From Phenylobacterium sp. (lineage in GTDB: Bacteria; Pseudomonadota; Alphaproteobacteria; Caulobacterales; Caulobacteraceae): a DNA stretch of 64,000 nucleotides. Position numbers and translations under genes: made by a program. Under the pieces are notes generated by a model. That model did not search any database. It worked only from the letters and a program-made list of their open reading frames with translations, and was not told the origin of the DNA. How positions within the stretch are numbered: the stretch's first letter is position 1; each line of letters starts with the position of its first letter. The DNA lies in assembly GCF_004297125.1 (NCBI RefSeq), contig NZ_SCVD01000025.1, positions 1 through 64,000 on the forward strand. Reading direction: 5' to 3'. Of this stretch, positions 3,534-64,000 are shown one piece after another.

Positions 3534-3911
3534 GTGCCCGCGCCGGAGGATGCGATCCGCGCGCGGCGCAAGCTGACCAACCGGCTGATCGCGGCGCACC
3601 AGGCTGAGCGGCTGCGGCCGTTCTTCCTGCCCGACGTGACCCTGATCGTCGGCGATGGCGGCCTGATCCTGGGCCTGAACGCGGTGATCGAAGCGTTCGC
3701 GGCCCAGTTCGCCGACCCGACCTTCAAGACCTACATTCGTGAAACCGAGACCGTCAGCCTCGACGCGAAGGGGACTCGCGCCGCCGAGTCAGGCCGCTGG
3801 ACCGGCGTCTACGCCGATGCGGAACTGCGGGGCAGCTACCTGGCGGCCTGGCGCAATGTCCGCGGCCAGTGGGCCATCGAGAGCGAGCTCTACGTCACCC
3901 TGGCCGGCTAG
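3534..3911 (+). CDS. SnoaL/NTF2-like (DUF4440-type) protein
   Basis: 125-aa ORF with NTF2-like pattern (LIVGDGGLILGLNAVIEAFAAQFADPTF ... GRWTGVYADAELRGSYLAAWRNVRGQWAIESELYV). Confidence 0.7.
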   Translation: MPAPEDAIRARRKLTNRLIAAHQAERLRPFFLPDVTLIVGDGGLILGLNAVIEAFAAQFADPTFKTYIRETETVSLDAKGTRAAESGRWTGVYADAELRGSYLAAWRNVRGQWAIESELYVTLAG

Positions 3912-4175: not shown

Positions 4176-5735
4176 TCAGTCCGCCCTGGGCAGGGTCACC
4201 CGGAACGCCGCGCCCTGCCCTGTCTCGACCAGCTCGATCCTCGCGTGGCTGGCGGCCAGCAGCGAGCGGGCGATGGGCAGGCCCAGGCCGGTCCCGCCTT
4301 CGGCCCGGCGGCTCGTGAAGAAGGGTTCGAACAGGCGCTCGCGGTCCGCGGCGGGAACCCCCGGCCCGTCGTCGGCGACGGTGAGGATCACATCGGCGCC
4401 CTCCCGCGCCGCTGTCACCGTCGCGCGGCCCGCCCCGGCCTGGCGGGCGTTCTGCAGCAGGATGGTCAGCACGCTTTCCACCGTCGTGAGCGGCGCGGCG
4501 ACGGCCGGGATGTCACGCGGCACGTCCACCTCGACCGGAAAGCCGGCGGCGTCGGCGGCGCGGCGGGCGGGTTCGGCCAGGTCGGCGGCCGCGCCCGCCT
4601 CGGGCATGGCCATGTCGGCGCGGGCCAGGTCCAGCAGCCGCGTCACCAGCTGCGAGAGGCGGTCGCTGTCGCCGGCGATGTTGTCCAGGAAGCGGCGCCG
4701 CTCATCCGGCGACATGGTTTCGAAGTGGTCCTGCAGCAGCTCCACCGCGCCGCCGATGCCGGCCAGCGGGGTCTTGAACTCGTGGCTGACCGCCGCGGCG
4801 AAGTCGCGGAGGTAGCCGCTGCGCCGCTCGATCCGCTCGGCCATGGCGCGGAAATCCTCGTAGAGGTCGCGGATCTCCACGGCCGCCGTGCGCGGGGTGC
4901 GCGGGATCTCCCCCCCACCGCCCGCCACCTGGCGCGACGCGGCGCTCAGCGTCTCGATCGGCAGGGTCACGCCGCGGGCGATCAGGCCCGAGAGCACCAC
5001 CAGCAGGCCCAGGATCACACCGGCGGCCAGCGCGAACTTGCCCCGGTCCTCGTAGAGGCCGCGGAACAGCGCGCGGGGCGAACGCGACAGGAGGATCACC
5101 CCCTTCACCTGTCCGCCCACCACGATCGGCCGGGCATGGTGCAGGCGGATGCCCGACGCCTTGCTGAGCCATTCGAAGCGGTAGAGCGGACGGTAGTCGC
5201 CGTTCTCCCGCAGGACGGTGCGCGGCCGGCCGGCCAGGGCGGCCTGGACCTCGGGCAGGCCGGAATAGTCCTCGCCGTCCACCGAGACGCCATGACGGTC
5301 CAGCACCACGGCGGAGGCCAAGGTCGTGCGCGTGGTGCGCTCCATCACCGGCTCCAGCGCCCGGGCGACGCCCACGGCCTGGGGATCGGCGGGCTGGCGG
5401 GCGCGGGGCGGAACCGGCCGTTCGGGCAGCACGGGGTCGCGGCTGAGGTCGATGGTGGTGAACTCCGGCCGGAAGTAGCCGTCCGGCGGCTTCTCGGGCC
5501 GCGGGACAGCCGCCGGCGCCCCTGGCCAGCCGACGGCCGCCACCGCCGTCAGCGCCGCGCCCTGGGCCACCAGCTCGGCCTCGGTCTGCCGGACCAGGGT
5601 GTTCTCGAAGACCCGCAGCGAGATGGCCCCGATGGCGGGCATTGCGGCGGCGAACAACAGCACCCCGAACAGGATGGTGCGCAGCCGCAGCGCCGGCCAC
5701 CAGGGGGCGATCAGGTCCTTGATGCGCTCGATCAA
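4176..5735 (-). CDS. Sensor histidine kinase
   Basis: HAMP-like region, H-box AAVSHEFKTPLAGI, N-box LLQNARQAG, G boxes DDGPGVP and GTGLGL. Confidence 0.92.
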   Translation of the reverse strand: MIERIKDLIAPWWPALRLRTILFGVLLFAAAMPAIGAISLRVFENTLVRQTEAELVAQGAALTAVAAVGWPGAPAAVPRPEKPPDGYFRPEFTTIDLSRDPVLPERPVPPRARQPADPQAVGVARALEPVMERTTRTTLASAVVLDRHGVSVDGEDYSGLPEVQAALAGRPRTVLRENGDYRPLYRFEWLSKASGIRLHHARPIVVGGQVKGVILLSRSPRALFRGLYEDRGKFALAAGVILGLLVVLSGLIARGVTLPIETLSAASRQVAGGGGEIPRTPRTAAVEIRDLYEDFRAMAERIERRSGYLRDFAAAVSHEFKTPLAGIGGAVELLQDHFETMSPDERRRFLDNIAGDSDRLSQLVTRLLDLARADMAMPEAGAAADLAEPARRAADAAGFPVEVDVPRDIPAVAAPLTTVESVLTILLQNARQAGAGRATVTAAREGADVILTVADDGPGVPAADRERLFEPFFTSRRAEGGTGLGLPIARSLLAASHARIELVETGQGAAFRVTLPRAD

Positions 5736-6439: not shown

Positions 6440-7959
6440 GTTCCGGGGTTCGGGGTGGGCGTCAATGGAGCGGTGGGTTTCGGCGGGGGCGGCAGCGCCC
6501 CCTCGCAGTTGCGGCCGCTGCTTGCCGGCCGCGCGAAGGACTCTCCGGTCAAGGCCTGGACGCGTTCCAGCCGTCGGGCGTCGCGCCAGCGCCAAGTGCG
6601 CCACGCCGTCTGCTGGACCGCCACGTCGGCCGCAAGCATCCGGCGCTTCCAGGCGATGCGGTCGCGGAAGTCCCCCGGCGGCAGGCGGCGTTCCAGCTCC
6701 GCGAGGGAGACGACGCCCGCGCCCTTGAGGTCGCCGAAGTAGCAGACGTCCAGATTCACGCCCTTGCCCCCGACCTCGCGGGCGTGCCGGACGTTCCAGG
6801 ACGCGGCGACGGCGCCCAGGTCGACCACGCTGCAGCCCAGCAGGACCACGCCCGCGGCCAGGACGTTGGCGTTCAGCAGCCAGCCGGAACTCTTCCGCGC
6901 CAGCAGCCGCCAGCAGATCAGCGCCAGCCCCAGGGCCACCAGGCCCATCCACAACAGGGCGGCGATCCGCATCCGCGTCAGCGAATAGACCTCAATGTAG
7001 TCCAGCGTCCGCAGGACGGTGGAGGCGACCAGGAACAGGTTCTGCGCCACCCAGGCCGTGACCAGGATGCGGACCAGGCGCGAGTCCGCCGTGCGCGACC
7101 CGGGCCGCAGGAAGACCAGGACGAACAGGCCCGCCAGCACCGCCGTCGCGATCAGGGCGTAGGCGCCGCGGTGGGCGTAGTCGGCGAAGCTGACCCCTTC
7201 CGGCAGGCCCGCCCCGCTCCAGAGGAAGGCGACGTCGAGGACGTTCTGCAGGCCGAACAGGGCGTTGAAGACGATCAGTGACACGGTGATCGAGGCGGTG
7301 GTCACGCCCGGCAGGTCCACGTCGCCCTCCATGCCCGGCGCGGCGCGGGTGCAACGAAGGCCGCGGGGCCGCAACAGGGCCCACACCGGCAGGGCGACGA
7401 AGGCCCAGAACACCACCCGTCCGACGTCCGGCTCCGGCAGCGCCAGCGTAGCCAGGCCCTCGCTGATCAGCGGATTGGCGCTGGCGAACAGCCACAGGAA
7501 GATCGCGCCGCCGCACACCGGCAGGATCGCCGCCAGCAGGATGGCGGTGACCTTCAACGGTCGCGACCGCGCCCGGACCTTGAGGATCCGCTTCAGATCG
7601 AGCAGCGGCCCGATCAGGCTCTTGATCCCGGCCATCACGAGCCGCTGCGCCCAGCGCCAGGCGTCGTCGCCCGCGGCCGCTCGAGGCGCCAGCGCCGCGA
7701 CCGCCAGGGCGAGGATGCAAAGCAGAACCCCGACCAGCGTCGGGCGCTCGACCTGCACGGCGGCCAGGATCGCGGCGACCCCGAGCGCCGGCCAGGCGGC
7801 GCGGCTGGTCCGGACGGCCGGCAGGACGGCGACGCAGGCCAGGGCGAACAACGCCAGACCTAACCCCGGCTGCTGTTCGAACAGCAGCACATCGGCGGCG
7901 GCCACCAGGCCCACGGCCAGGGTCGCCTTGATCCAGAAGCTCGGAAGCCGCGCGGGCAT
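6436..7959 (-). CDS. DUF4173-like multi-pass membrane protein
   Basis: 507-aa ORF with about ten hydrophobic segments and DUF4173-like C-terminus (RMRIAALLWMGLVALGLALICWRL ... VNLDVCYFGDLK). Confidence 0.75.
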   Translation of the reverse strand: MPARLPSFWIKATLAVGLVAAADVLLFEQQPGLGLALFALACVAVLPAVRTSRAAWPALGVAAILAAVQVERPTLVGVLLCILALAVAALAPRAAAGDDAWRWAQRLVMAGIKSLIGPLLDLKRILKVRARSRPLKVTAILLAAILPVCGGAIFLWLFASANPLISEGLATLALPEPDVGRVVFWAFVALPVWALLRPRGLRCTRAAPGMEGDVDLPGVTTASITVSLIVFNALFGLQNVLDVAFLWSGAGLPEGVSFADYAHRGAYALIATAVLAGLFVLVFLRPGSRTADSRLVRILVTAWVAQNLFLVASTVLRTLDYIEVYSLTRMRIAALLWMGLVALGLALICWRLLARKSSGWLLNANVLAAGVVLLGCSVVDLGAVAASWNVRHAREVGGKGVNLDVCYFGDLKGAGVVSLAELERRLPPGDFRDRIAWKRRMLAADVAVQQTAWRTWRWRDARRLERVQALTGESFARPASSGRNCEGALPPPPKPTAPLTPTPNPGT

Positions 7960-8063: not shown

Positions 8064-9857
<1,794 letters not shown>

Positions 9858-60513: not shown

Positions 60514-60643
60514 CCGGCTGCGGCGCCGGGCCGGTGGGCTGCCGTGGACTTAAGGTGGGGTGGCATCCTGGGGATGCGTGAATAGGGATGGATATCCTGT
60601 CCCCGAATTTCGCTCACTTTGGGCATTCCCACCACGGGTCGTG

Positions 60644-60820
60644 ATGAGAACATTCGACGCCAAGCGGCAAACCCTGCCTGCGCCGAGCGAGATTGCTCAC
60701 ATCGCAAACATGGGGTTGTATCTCCGCTGGGTGGGCATCTTCGTGGACAACATCGACCGACATGAAAATCGCGTAGCAACGCGGCGGCTCAGTTCGCGCG
60801 AAGCCAGTCATGGCTATTGA
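60644..60820 (+). CDS. Small ORF upstream of and overlapping the RT
   Basis: 58 aa MRTFDAKRQTLPAPSEIAHIANMGLYLRWVGIFVDNIDRHENRVATRRLSSREASHGY; stop overlaps RT start (ATGGCTATTGA, 11 bp); alternative upstream start at 60560. Confidence 0.4.
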   Translation: MRTFDAKRQTLPAPSEIAHIANMGLYLRWVGIFVDNIDRHENRVATRRLSSREASHGY

Positions 60821-62441
60821 CCTCGGTCCGCTCCAATTTGACGACGAAATTGTCCTCCGCCAACTGCGCCGGGATCTCCGAGACGACTGGTTCCCCGATC
60901 CTAGAGAGTTCGAGGACATATTTCGGCACGACCAAATCCAGGGGGTCCTTTCCCAGAATTTTGATGGGAATGAGGGGGTCTACCGCCCCATCAGACGCAA
61001 CTTGCTCAACGTTCCGAAATCCAACTTCACGCTTCGATACGCGTTGGAAACGGGTGTCGCGGACCGAGCGCTCTACCAAGGCATCGCGACATACCTCGTC
61101 CCCTTCTACGACCCGTTGTTGCCGTGGAACGTCTTCAATCATCGACAGGCCGAGGAGAAGGACGCGGCGAAGCACCTCTTCAAGCGCGCCGTGCAATCGT
61201 GGCAAGATTTTATCGGGGTCGTTAAGACCTCGGTGAAAACAAACCCGACGCTGCTCTCTACCGATCTCACGAACTATTTCGAGAACATCAATCTTGATAT
61301 TCTCAAACAAACCCTACAGTCACTAATTCCAGAAATAAAAACTAGCGCCGCCGAGAAATCTCGCATCCGCTCACACCTTGCGATTCTGTTCGACTGCCTA
61401 CGCGAGTGGTGCTTTAGCGAGAACGCAGGGCTTCCTCAAAACCGAGACGCATCGTCGTTCTTGGCCAACGTCTACATGCTCCCCGTGGACCGCGCGATGC
61501 TCCAGCGGGGACACCAGTATTTTCGCTACATGGATGACATCAAGATTGCATGCCGCGACGAGTTCCAGGCTCGACGGGCTCTAAAGGAACTCAGCATTGA
61601 ACTTCGAAAGATTGGGCTGTCGGTAAATTCGGGAAAGACCCAAATCTGCCGCCCCGGTGATGACGAGGCGCTAGACAAGTGCCTCGACCTGGGCGGCACT
61701 GAGTTGCATCAGATTGATGCCATCTGGAACACTCGTGCCATACGGCCAATCTCCCGATCCTTTCCGCTCCTGAAGGAGCTTACACAGCGACTTCTGAGAA
61801 GCGGCGAGGTTGATAAACGCGTCTTCCGATACTGCATCCGACGCCTTGAGGTGCTCGCCCAGTGTCCTGAGTTTGCGGTGCCCCCGGAATATTTCGACGG
61901 AATTACACCCCTTGTTGTGGACGCCCTCGCCACGGCTCCAGCCGCGACGGACCAATTGGCCCGCTACCTACGATCTGTGCCTCTGAGCCCCCAGCTCCTC
62001 GGGCAGATTTCCGGCTTGCTCCGAGATCCTGAGAAGAACTTCTACACATGGCAGAGTTATCGCTTGTGGGCGCTGCTCGTGCAGAAGGAGCACATGGATC
62101 CAGATCTTATGCTCCACGCGCTCGGCCTCGTTCGAACGGCACCAGATGATGCCAATCGATCAGGGGCAACGCTTTACGTCGGCGCGCTGGGTGGGAAGGC
62201 GGAACGCGTCGTAGTTGCTGAGAACTTCTCTCGCTCAGAGTCCTACCTTGGACAGCGGACCGCTCTGATAGCGGTTCAAGAACTCCACTACCGCCCGCAT
62301 ATCGAAGTAAATGTTCAGCCCTATTTGAGAGGCGACCTCAAGAACGTATACAAAGGATTGTCTAGGGAGGGTATTTACATGGCCCCTCCCGAAGCTGGCC
62401 CAATTACCCGCTACATCGATCTAGGTCGCGATTATGATTGA
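60810..62441 (+). CDS. Reverse transcriptase (UG/Abi-like, putative defence RT)
   Basis: RT motifs: LNVPKSNFTLRYALE, LLSTDLTNYFENI (catalytic D), GLPQNRDASSFLANVYMLPVDRAML, YFRYMDDIKI (YMDD at 61527-61538), IGLSVNSGKTQI; about 230-aa helical C-terminal extension. Confidence 0.94.
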   Translation: MAIDLGPLQFDDEIVLRQLRRDLRDDWFPDPREFEDIFRHDQIQGVLSQNFDGNEGVYRPIRRNLLNVPKSNFTLRYALETGVADRALYQGIATYLVPFYDPLLPWNVFNHRQAEEKDAAKHLFKRAVQSWQDFIGVVKTSVKTNPTLLSTDLTNYFENINLDILKQTLQSLIPEIKTSAAEKSRIRSHLAILFDCLREWCFSENAGLPQNRDASSFLANVYMLPVDRAMLQRGHQYFRYMDDIKIACRDEFQARRALKELSIELRKIGLSVNSGKTQICRPGDDEALDKCLDLGGTELHQIDAIWNTRAIRPISRSFPLLKELTQRLLRSGEVDKRVFRYCIRRLEVLAQCPEFAVPPEYFDGITPLVVDALATAPAATDQLARYLRSVPLSPQLLGQISGLLRDPEKNFYTWQSYRLWALLVQKEHMDPDLMLHALGLVRTAPDDANRSGATLYVGALGGKAERVVVAENFSRSESYLGQRTALIAVQELHYRPHIEVNVQPYLRGDLKNVYKGLSREGIYMAPPEAGPITRYIDLGRDYD

Positions 62442-64000
62442 TGGATACCTCTCATACTTGCCCGATCCTTTCGCGGTGAGGGCGTCGCTCTTCTATTTGC
62501 GGCTCCCCGACGGCAGTGCAAAGCGCGTTTCAGGGCGAGAGGTAAGCGACTTCTCAGGACTGCTTGCGACCTATGATCTAGCTGCGCTGGTCGATGATCT
62601 ACGCCGGCTAGGCTACGCTCCACCAAGTCGCCCACTAGACCTAGGCGACGCCCTCCGGCTTGCTGCGGGGATACCCAGAGATGAGGGGGGAGACCGCCAA
62701 TGGGACGTGTGGAGATACCTCTCGCGCTACTTCGCTGATCGGCAGGGCGGCGCGAAATTTGCAGGGATTGCACAATCCCGTTGTCCTAGGCCGGGCGAAC
62801 CCGAAATCACGGAGTTGCTCGACGCAGCTGCGAAGGCCCTGCATGAGGGGTGGGACGGAATTCTGTTGCGCCTCAAGGAAGCGGGCGAGCTGTCGCGACT
62901 GCTTGAGGTTGAGGCGCCGGTCCAGTCGATTTTTGCGAACCGCCAAAGTGTCGGTATCGCTGTGGATCACGACGTGGTGGATCGACTTCTCAAAGAAGTC
63001 GCGGATGAAAAGTACGAGGCGTATCATTCAGTTGCGGCAGCGCTGAACTCTAGCCCTAGTGGGCTCAACTTCTGGAACGTCTCCCAGCACTTGGAGCGCA
63101 CGGACGCCTCCCATCTGCTACCGACGACCGAGGGCGGGCTCCTGCGTGAAGCCTTCAAGATGGCGGCGCCCAATTCGGGGTTTGCTCGCGACTTTCTTCA
63201 ATTCGCCGACGCCAGTCGAGACGAGACTATTCTCCGACGCGCATCGGGTGTGGGCAATCGCTTGCACCCGATCTTCAACGTCATGGGAACTGTGAGCGGC
63301 CGAATCTTGGTCGCCGACCCGTTTCTCCAGCAACTGAGGCGGGGGTACCGGAGCCTTATCGCTCCCGATCCAAACAAGCGTCTTGCGTATCTGGATTACG
63401 CTCAATTTGAGCCGGGGATTATGGCCTCCCTGGCACATGATTCCGGCTTCGTGGCGGCCTACAACAGAGGGGACGTCTACGAGGCCCTAAGCGAGCGCGT
63501 GTTTGGGACGGTAGAGGACCGGCCCTTAGCAAAGCGGATCTTCTTAGCCTTCTCGTACGGCATGACTCTGGAACGGATCGCAACCCTTGCAGTAGCGCCC
63601 AACGCCACGGAAGCGGAACGGGGCGCGTGCAAGGAAGCCGTCCAAGGCTTCTTCGATGCCTATCCCGGCCTCGCCAAATTTAGGGCTGATATGGAAGCTC
63701 AACTCAGCGCGAAAGGCTATGTTTCGAGCGCCTTCGGAAATCGGCGCAAGCGCGCCAACGCTGGCCCACTGAACCGGAAGGAACGTCGCTGGGCGGTCAA
63801 TCAGCCAATACAAGCGACTGCGTCGCTTGTGTTCAAAGAAGCGCTGATCGACCTAGCGCGGCAATTTGGAGCTCAAAGCATTCTCCTGCCGATGCATGAC
63901 GCCGTCCTCATGCAATTCGACCTTGCGGGTTACGACGACGCTGTGACGGCGGCCCAGACGGCTATGGTCGAAGCCTTTCAGCGACGTTGCCCGACGGTGA
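62434..64000 (+). CDS. Divergent family A (Pol I-like) DNA polymerase, open at window edge
   Basis: ATG at 62434 overlaps RT stop by 8 bp; 522 codons with no stop: TVSGRILVADPFLQQLRRGYRSLIAP; motif A LAYLDYAQFEPGIMASLAHD; O-helix RPLAKRIFLAFSYGMT; VNQPIQATASLVFKEAL; motif C LPMHDAVLMQF. Confidence 0.93.
   Translation, partial: MIDGYLSYLPDPFAVRASLFYLRLPDGSAKRVSGREVSDFSGLLATYDLAALVDDLRRLGYAPPSRPLDLGDALRLAAGIPRDEGGDRQWDVWRYLSRYFADRQGGAKFAGIAQSRCPRPGEPEITELLDAAAKALHEGWDGILLRLKEAGELSRLLEVEAPVQSIFANRQSVGIAVDHDVVDRLLKEVADEKYEAYHSVAAALNSSPSGLNFWNVSQHLERTDASHLLPTTEGGLLREAFKMAAPNSGFARDFLQFADASRDETILRRASGVGNRLHPIFNVMGTVSGRILVADPFLQQLRRGYRSLIAPDPNKRLAYLDYAQFEPGIMASLAHDSGFVAAYNRGDVYEALSERVFGTVEDRPLAKRIFLAFSYGMTLERIATLAVAPNATEAERGACKEAVQGFFDAYPGLAKFRADMEAQLSAKGYVSSAFGNRRKRANAGPLNRKERRWAVNQPIQATASLVFKEALIDLARQFGAQSILLPMHDAVLMQFDLAGYDDAVTAAQTAMVEAFQRRCPTV

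Follow-up and report, generated by a model that had tools for sequence, protein, structure and literature searches.

A UG9-group reverse transcriptase and its family-A DNA polymerase partner in a Phenylobacterium genome: a candidate two-polymerase antiphage system

The window analyzed here is a stretch of 64,000 nucleotides (nt) from Phenylobacterium sp. (contig NZ_SCVD01000025.1, positions 1 to 64,000), whose right-hand end holds two consecutive plus-strand genes: a reverse transcriptase (RT) of the UG9 group, 543 aa in length (60810-62441), and a family-A DNA polymerase, PolA, of 535 aa (62434-64041, with 62434-64000 inside the window). The contig goes on beyond position 64000, and the PolA stop lies at 64041. 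The RT matches the PADLOC profile RT_UG9_small over residues 2-543 (E = 6.1e-204, 677 bits), with weaker matches to UG9_large (285 bits) and then UG21 (199 bits), a ranking that puts it in the UG9 group, within the UG/Abi supergroup of defense-associated reverse transcriptases (DRTs). PolA matches the PADLOC profile RTasPolA ("RT-associated PolA"; E = 9.7e-135) and PRK14975 models (1.5e-28), and the Pfam families RVT_1 (1.8e-15) and DNA_pol_A (5.6e-33) were recovered in the RT and PolA, respectively. The G+C fraction is 0.56-0.60 across the two genes, compared with 0.69-0.77 in the adjoining kilobases. A preliminary description of this DNA had reported three overlapping open reading frames (these two genes and a small one upstream), the drop in G+C content, a complete YMDD core in the RT, and motifs A, B, and C in PolA with D321 and D489 in motifs A and C; all of these observations hold, as does its placement of the RT in the UG/Abi supergroup.

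By its profile matches, the locus is a complete UG9-type DRT operon consisting of the RT and an RT-associated PolA. PADLOC-DB files both RT_UG9_small and RTasPolA under DRT (PDLC03786/PDLC03816), and the myRT paper of 2021 lists a PRK14975 (PolA-type) neighbor for 94% of UG9 RTs (PMC8934634, Table 4), so the earlier view of the pair as an undescribed system has to be abandoned. That view had named membership in an already characterized RT/PolA family as evidence against itself; such a family is on record as far as description goes, but not as far as biochemistry goes. In a whole-word text search of the literature, UG9 together with "reverse transcriptase" occurred only in the myRT paper, no experimental study of UG9-PolA was found in the literature searched, and excerpts from a 2026 DRT review name no PolA partner among DRT1-9. 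The RT/PolA pairing is already described, the mechanism predicted below is absent from the sources searched, and the window operon is, as judged from its sequence, a new and divergent member of a described, apparently uncharacterized DRT group.

Close relatives of the operon are rare: with the source genome counted each time, they occur in 1 genome out of 385 in the class, 2 out of 101 in the genus, and 5 out of 368 in the family. A single-sequence query of genome contigs returned one relative, and a family-wide genome search returned three more. Full-length loci number nine: the window, L146, L148, L147, plasmids of Falsirhodobacter, Dinoroseobacter, and Paraburkholderia (L036-L038), and the prophage-like contigs L039 and L040. 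PolA lies directly downstream of the RT in all nine, spanning Caulobacteraceae, plasmids, and prophages, which bears out the expectation that homologs of the RT regularly adjoin a PolA homolog. RT identity between the Caulobacteraceae branch and the plasmid/prophage branch is only 30-33%. The genes overlap by 8 bp in eight of the nine loci, with the sequence ATGATTGA, as in the window (62434-62441, plus strand), once ATGATTAA, and twice ATGCGTGA; the exception, L147, has a 14-bp overlap and a GTG start for PolA. This fixed overlap is sequence evidence that RT and PolA are translationally coupled.

L146 and L148 come from two Caulobacteraceae genomes that have an 8.2-kb island in common at 99.4% identity. 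The RT of L148 (L148:6059-7701) is frameshifted near residue 275 and that of its sister L146 is intact, reflecting either a sequencing error or a recent inactivation. A tenth copy, in the Phenylobacterium metagenome-assembled genome RYN_472 (L003), is the closest relative of the window copy, 90% identical over 225 residues, and lacks internal pieces of both genes: two internal deletions (L003:5854-7598) fuse the front of the RT to pieces of PolA, through decay or an assembly error.

The catalytic residues of the RT are preserved throughout. Its YMDD occupies residues 240-243 (~61527-61538, plus strand), and both the motif A aspartate D152 and the D242/D243 pair of (Y)xDD are invariant in an alignment of eight RT homologs. 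Beyond the core, residues ~297-491 (61698-62282, plus strand) appear, from structure modeling, to form a C-terminal helical-repeat domain like those of AbiK, DRT4, and DRT3b. An AlphaFold2 model based on 3 sequences contains a run of helices over residues 318-491, moderately confident over ~318-476, with a predicted local distance difference test (pLDDT) score mostly of 62-90 over residues 311-470, 52 overall, and low confidence in the last 50-70 residues. With this low-confidence model, Foldseek ranked DRT4/UG15 first, followed by DRT6, AbiK, AbiA, and Abi-P2 among others; alignments to DRT4/UG15, DRT6, and AbiK extended over ~375-430 columns, as opposed to only 242 for DRT2. PADLOC sequence similarity likewise enters the C-terminal half for UG21, UG32, and UG23 and is confined to the core for DRT2, DRT9, and UG17. 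RTs of Class 1 are distinguished by an alpha-Rep domain at the C terminus, and those that have been studied synthesize DNA without a nucleic acid template, sometimes from a protein primer (PMC13174585).

Past residue 490, the tail of the RT is nearly unconserved, and only V502, D537, and Y542 are invariant among the eight RTs. Y542 (codon 62433-62435, plus strand) is the penultimate residue in all eight intact UG9 RTs. In DRT3b, which consists of an RT (residues 1-322), an alpha-Rep region (323-621), and a tail (622-667), DNA is primed at the penultimate residue, Y666 of 667, and the Y666F substitution abolishes both product synthesis and defense (PMC13174585). By analogy, we infer that Y542 serves as the priming residue of the UG9 RT. 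The tyrosine codon of L147 is TAC and lies outside the PolA start codon; the gene overlap therefore does not force a tyrosine at this position, arguing for selection at the protein level.

A first strand could instead be copied from RNA. Under this explanation, the RT would use a noncoding RNA (ncRNA) encoded in cis, in the style of Class 2 DRTs, within the leader at 60.6-60.8 kb, and PolA would add the second strand. The leader does contain a conserved noncoding element (60686-60745, plus strand, ~65-125 nt upstream of the RT start) that is ~80-85% identical to L003 over its first ~45 nt (85% in the first 20-nt windows), falling to 70% by its end, despite the saturation of synonymous sites between the two copies (27% identity at fourfold-degenerate sites in the RT and 33% in PolA). 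The Dinoroseobacter and Falsirhodobacter plasmid copies also have ~200 nt of upstream sequence in common, but these stretches are no more alike than the synonymous sites of the two copies (identity ~0.85). Other pairs have no leader similarity, apart from the near-identical L146/L148 islands; even the Paraburkholderia, L039, and L040 copies, whose RTs are 86-90% identical, have no upstream sequence in common above chance. The leader element was not found upstream of any relative other than L003, and a scan of viral contigs for its motif gave no match. In L040, only 58 nt separate the previous stop codon from the RT start. Folding of the leader yielded z-scores of 0.48 (whole window leader) and 0.85, which denote no unusual structure, and Rfam searches gave no match for a flanking ncRNA. 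Synonymous-site conservation within the genes disclosed no strong embedded element. The conserved cis-encoded ncRNA that is a trait of Class 2 was not found family-wide, a constrained leader being present in one pair only. Because closely related RTs have no common upstream sequence, the L040 gap is short, and neither unusual structure nor an Rfam match was detected, it is unlikely that the UG9 family as a whole uses an ncRNA template encoded in its flanks, and we consider RNA copying from the leader an improbable account of the system.

Pairwise alignments of the sequences downstream of PolA likewise gave no family-wide signal. Among the Paraburkholderia, L039, and L040 copies, only L039 (~4810-4861) and L040 (~8220-8272) have a 52-nt block in common there (z = 8.8), at unequal distances from the gene.

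The leader also includes the small open reading frame (60560-60820, plus strand) that overlaps the RT by 11 bp and that the preliminary description had counted as part of the system. Its reading frame does not survive in L003, where both single- and multibase indels occur and the start codon is absent; it has no significant Pfam or PADLOC family match, and none of the other loci showed a counterpart. We judge it not to be a gene. Since the frame is broken between the window and L003, the conserved block within it would act as a control element or as a local RNA rather than encode a peptide, and it is probably a promoter or a 5' untranslated control element.

PolA was aligned to a solved Pol I and to 28 cellular Pol I sequences, which place motif A at ~63382-63417, motif B at ~63520-63561, and motif C at 63895-63903 (plus strand). 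Motif C of cellular PolA is HDE. Invariant in all nine PolA homologs are D321 of motif A (with QxE), D489, and the O-helix residues R363, K367, and Y375, and H488-D489 of motif C is kept. Relative to the cellular set, which was chosen for containing HDE, three changes are fixed in all nine: the motif C glutamate is alanine (HDA), the arginine after QxE is glycine, and an O-helix phenylalanine is leucine. Exonuclease motifs I-III were not found in the N-terminal 130 residues of PolA, where the local profile alignment starts only near residue 106, and Pfam gave no exonuclease match in the protein. The N-terminal 130 residues seem to stand in place of the exonuclease domain, and Klenow-type 3'-5' proofreading is probably lacking; a polymerase without proofreading would suit the copying of a low-complexity or random strand. 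The structure model of PolA (pLDDT 43) is too poor for use.

The fixed departures from the cellular Pol I active site (HDA, the glycine after QxE, and the O-helix leucine) would be accommodated if PolA modified, elongated, or capped the RT-linked strand, or had a regulatory role, rather than synthesizing a second strand. The invariant pair of metal-binding aspartates, the O-helix Arg/Lys/Tyr, and the motif A Gln/Glu fit templated DNA synthesis instead, and we regard a role other than second-strand synthesis as unlikely.

The window copy is a 3.5-kb cassette between 25-nt inverted repeats, the left one, GGGATGGATATCCTGTCCCCGAATT, at 60585-60609 (plus strand) and the right one at 64067-64091, just past the window. 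The two are complementary at 23 of 25 positions, a match reached in none of 1,000 shuffles of the right flank. Allowing up to 2 mismatches, the core of the repeat occurs eight times genome-wide (two of these being the cassette ends), against no occurrences of a reversed control pattern, and it forms part of short palindromic repeats that recur across this genome. The possibility that the repeats are the ends of an IS200/REP-type element was rejected: the core belongs to such palindromic repeats, but no Y1 transposase is encoded. For an empty-site comparison within the genus, the left neighbor gene was located in seven other genomes, but it did not adjoin the flanking genes looked for. PolA is followed by genes for a DUF4440 protein (L002:4273-4683), a PEP-CTERM-like protein, and a TetR-like regulator and by parC; the insertion therefore comprises RT and PolA only.

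Elsewhere in the same genome (contig C42; L128), near-identical palindromic repeats of ~70 bp with the same core as the cassette ends, TGTCCCCGAATT, lie at positions 3888-3906 and 7131-7149. Between them is an 833-aa open reading frame (L128:4580-7081) that has an NPPY methyltransferase-like motif but matches nothing in Pfam or PADLOC; this repeat family may have delivered it as a further cargo gene.

Several copies of the operon reside on plasmids, one of them near repC, or in prophages, as would be expected if the RT/PolA pair were a replication or mobility module of such elements and not a defense system. The neighbors, however, are unlike at every independent locus, ranging over plasmid transfer genes, repC and a recombinase, phage head genes, restriction genes, and housekeeping genes of the chromosome. 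In the window, moreover, the pair forms a chromosomal cassette that holds no other gene. Genes for phage head and neck proteins surround L039. Near UG9-PolA loci, restriction genes and others of a conflict type are met repeatedly: a Type ISP restriction enzyme in L040, an MmeI-type restriction enzyme and a HigA antitoxin in L036, a predicted pPIWI-associated nuclease in L037, and a DUF4062-AAA-TPR protein in L146/L148. These varied mobile settings and recurrent conflict genes fit defense cargo and count against a replication module, an explanation that we consider very improbable.

Two neighbors lie close upstream of the RT. In L040, a DEDDh exonuclease with a BRCT-like domain (L040:3978-4859) ends 57 nt before the RT and adjoins the Type ISP enzyme. 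In L146 (reverse strand) and L148 (L148:2462-5953), a 1,163-aa DUF4062-AAA-TPR protein ends ~105 nt upstream of the UG9 RT; its gene may be a companion or a separate defense gene.

We consider it evenly balanced whether the operon is an antiphage system in which the RT produces protein-linked, probably nontemplated DNA that PolA turns into a duplex. Under this scheme, phage infection would trigger an oligomeric RT, which would begin a DNA strand at its C-terminal tyrosine, Y542, and extend it without a dedicated RNA template. The cotranslated, exonuclease-lacking PolA would then copy the protein-linked strand into duplex DNA, for which snap-back priming is one possible source of primer. The accumulating protein-DNA would halt phage growth, probably by abortive infection, with toxicity or sequestration as the outcome. 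The full combination, a two-polymerase immunity in which a Y542-primed RT strand is made duplex by an exonuclease-less HDA PolA, is possible but is offered tentatively.

Several observations weigh against this scheme. Second-strand synthesis by a family-A polymerase would depend on a primer, whose source is so far conjectural. The tyrosine codon overlaps the PolA start in seven of the eight intact copies, so that only Y, H, N, or D is possible there, and the conservation of a C-terminal tyrosine can have other causes. The poor overall quality of the RT model, with its pLDDT of 52 from 3 sequences, renders the fold assignment provisional. Finally, the strong conservation of the leader block between the window and L003 makes a local RNA possible in that branch.

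Compared with the UG9 RT and RTasPolA of PADLOC and myRT, the window pair has the same gene order, with the two genes adjacent and both models matched along almost their entire length; the window-type Caulobacteraceae sequences are only 30-33% identical to the plasmid/prophage branch, and the pair is otherwise a plain member. DRT3 (UG3 RT, UG8 RT, and an ncRNA; PMC13174585) resembles it in having two polymerases, with double-stranded DNA as the DRT3 product, and in DRT3b the RT is followed by helical repeats and then by a tail whose penultimate tyrosine primes DNA, the layout proposed for the UG9 RT. Unlike in DRT3, the second polymerase of UG9 belongs to family A and is not an RT, and no family-wide ncRNA was found for UG9. 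DRT7/UG10, an RT-primase-polymerase fusion, also combines an RT with a second, non-RT DNA polymerase, but there the PrimPol is fused, whereas the PolA of UG9 is separate; a duplex-like DRT7 product is reported in a preprint, as cited in PMC13213688. AbiK, Abi-P2, DRT4 (UG15), and DRT6, the best structural matches to the UG9 RT model, combine an RT with a helical domain, as predicted for UG9, and synthesis by AbiK, Abi-P2, and DRT4 is template independent. All four, however, are single-gene systems without a polymerase partner, and AbiK primes from the N-terminal Y44 and Abi-P2 depends on Y61, whereas the candidate tyrosine of UG9 is C-terminal. The idea of two polymerases building double-stranded DNA is strengthened by the precedents of DRT3 and, per the preprint, DRT7, together with the penultimate tyrosine.

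Defense RTs make unusual DNA products, and in DRT3 (and in DRT7, according to the preprint) a duplex is built by two polymerase activities. UG9 RTs come with a fixed polymerase partner, and no biochemistry of the group was found in the literature searched. The penultimate tyrosine, the apparent absence of a family-wide RNA template, and the fixed change in the PolA active site lead to predictions at the level of single residues (Y542, YMDD, D321/D489, and A490). If the proposed scheme is true, UG9-PolA would join DRT3 and DRT7 as a third system that arrives by an independent route at double-stranded DNA for defense, and it would show that polymerases of the replication type can be enlisted to finish such DNA products.

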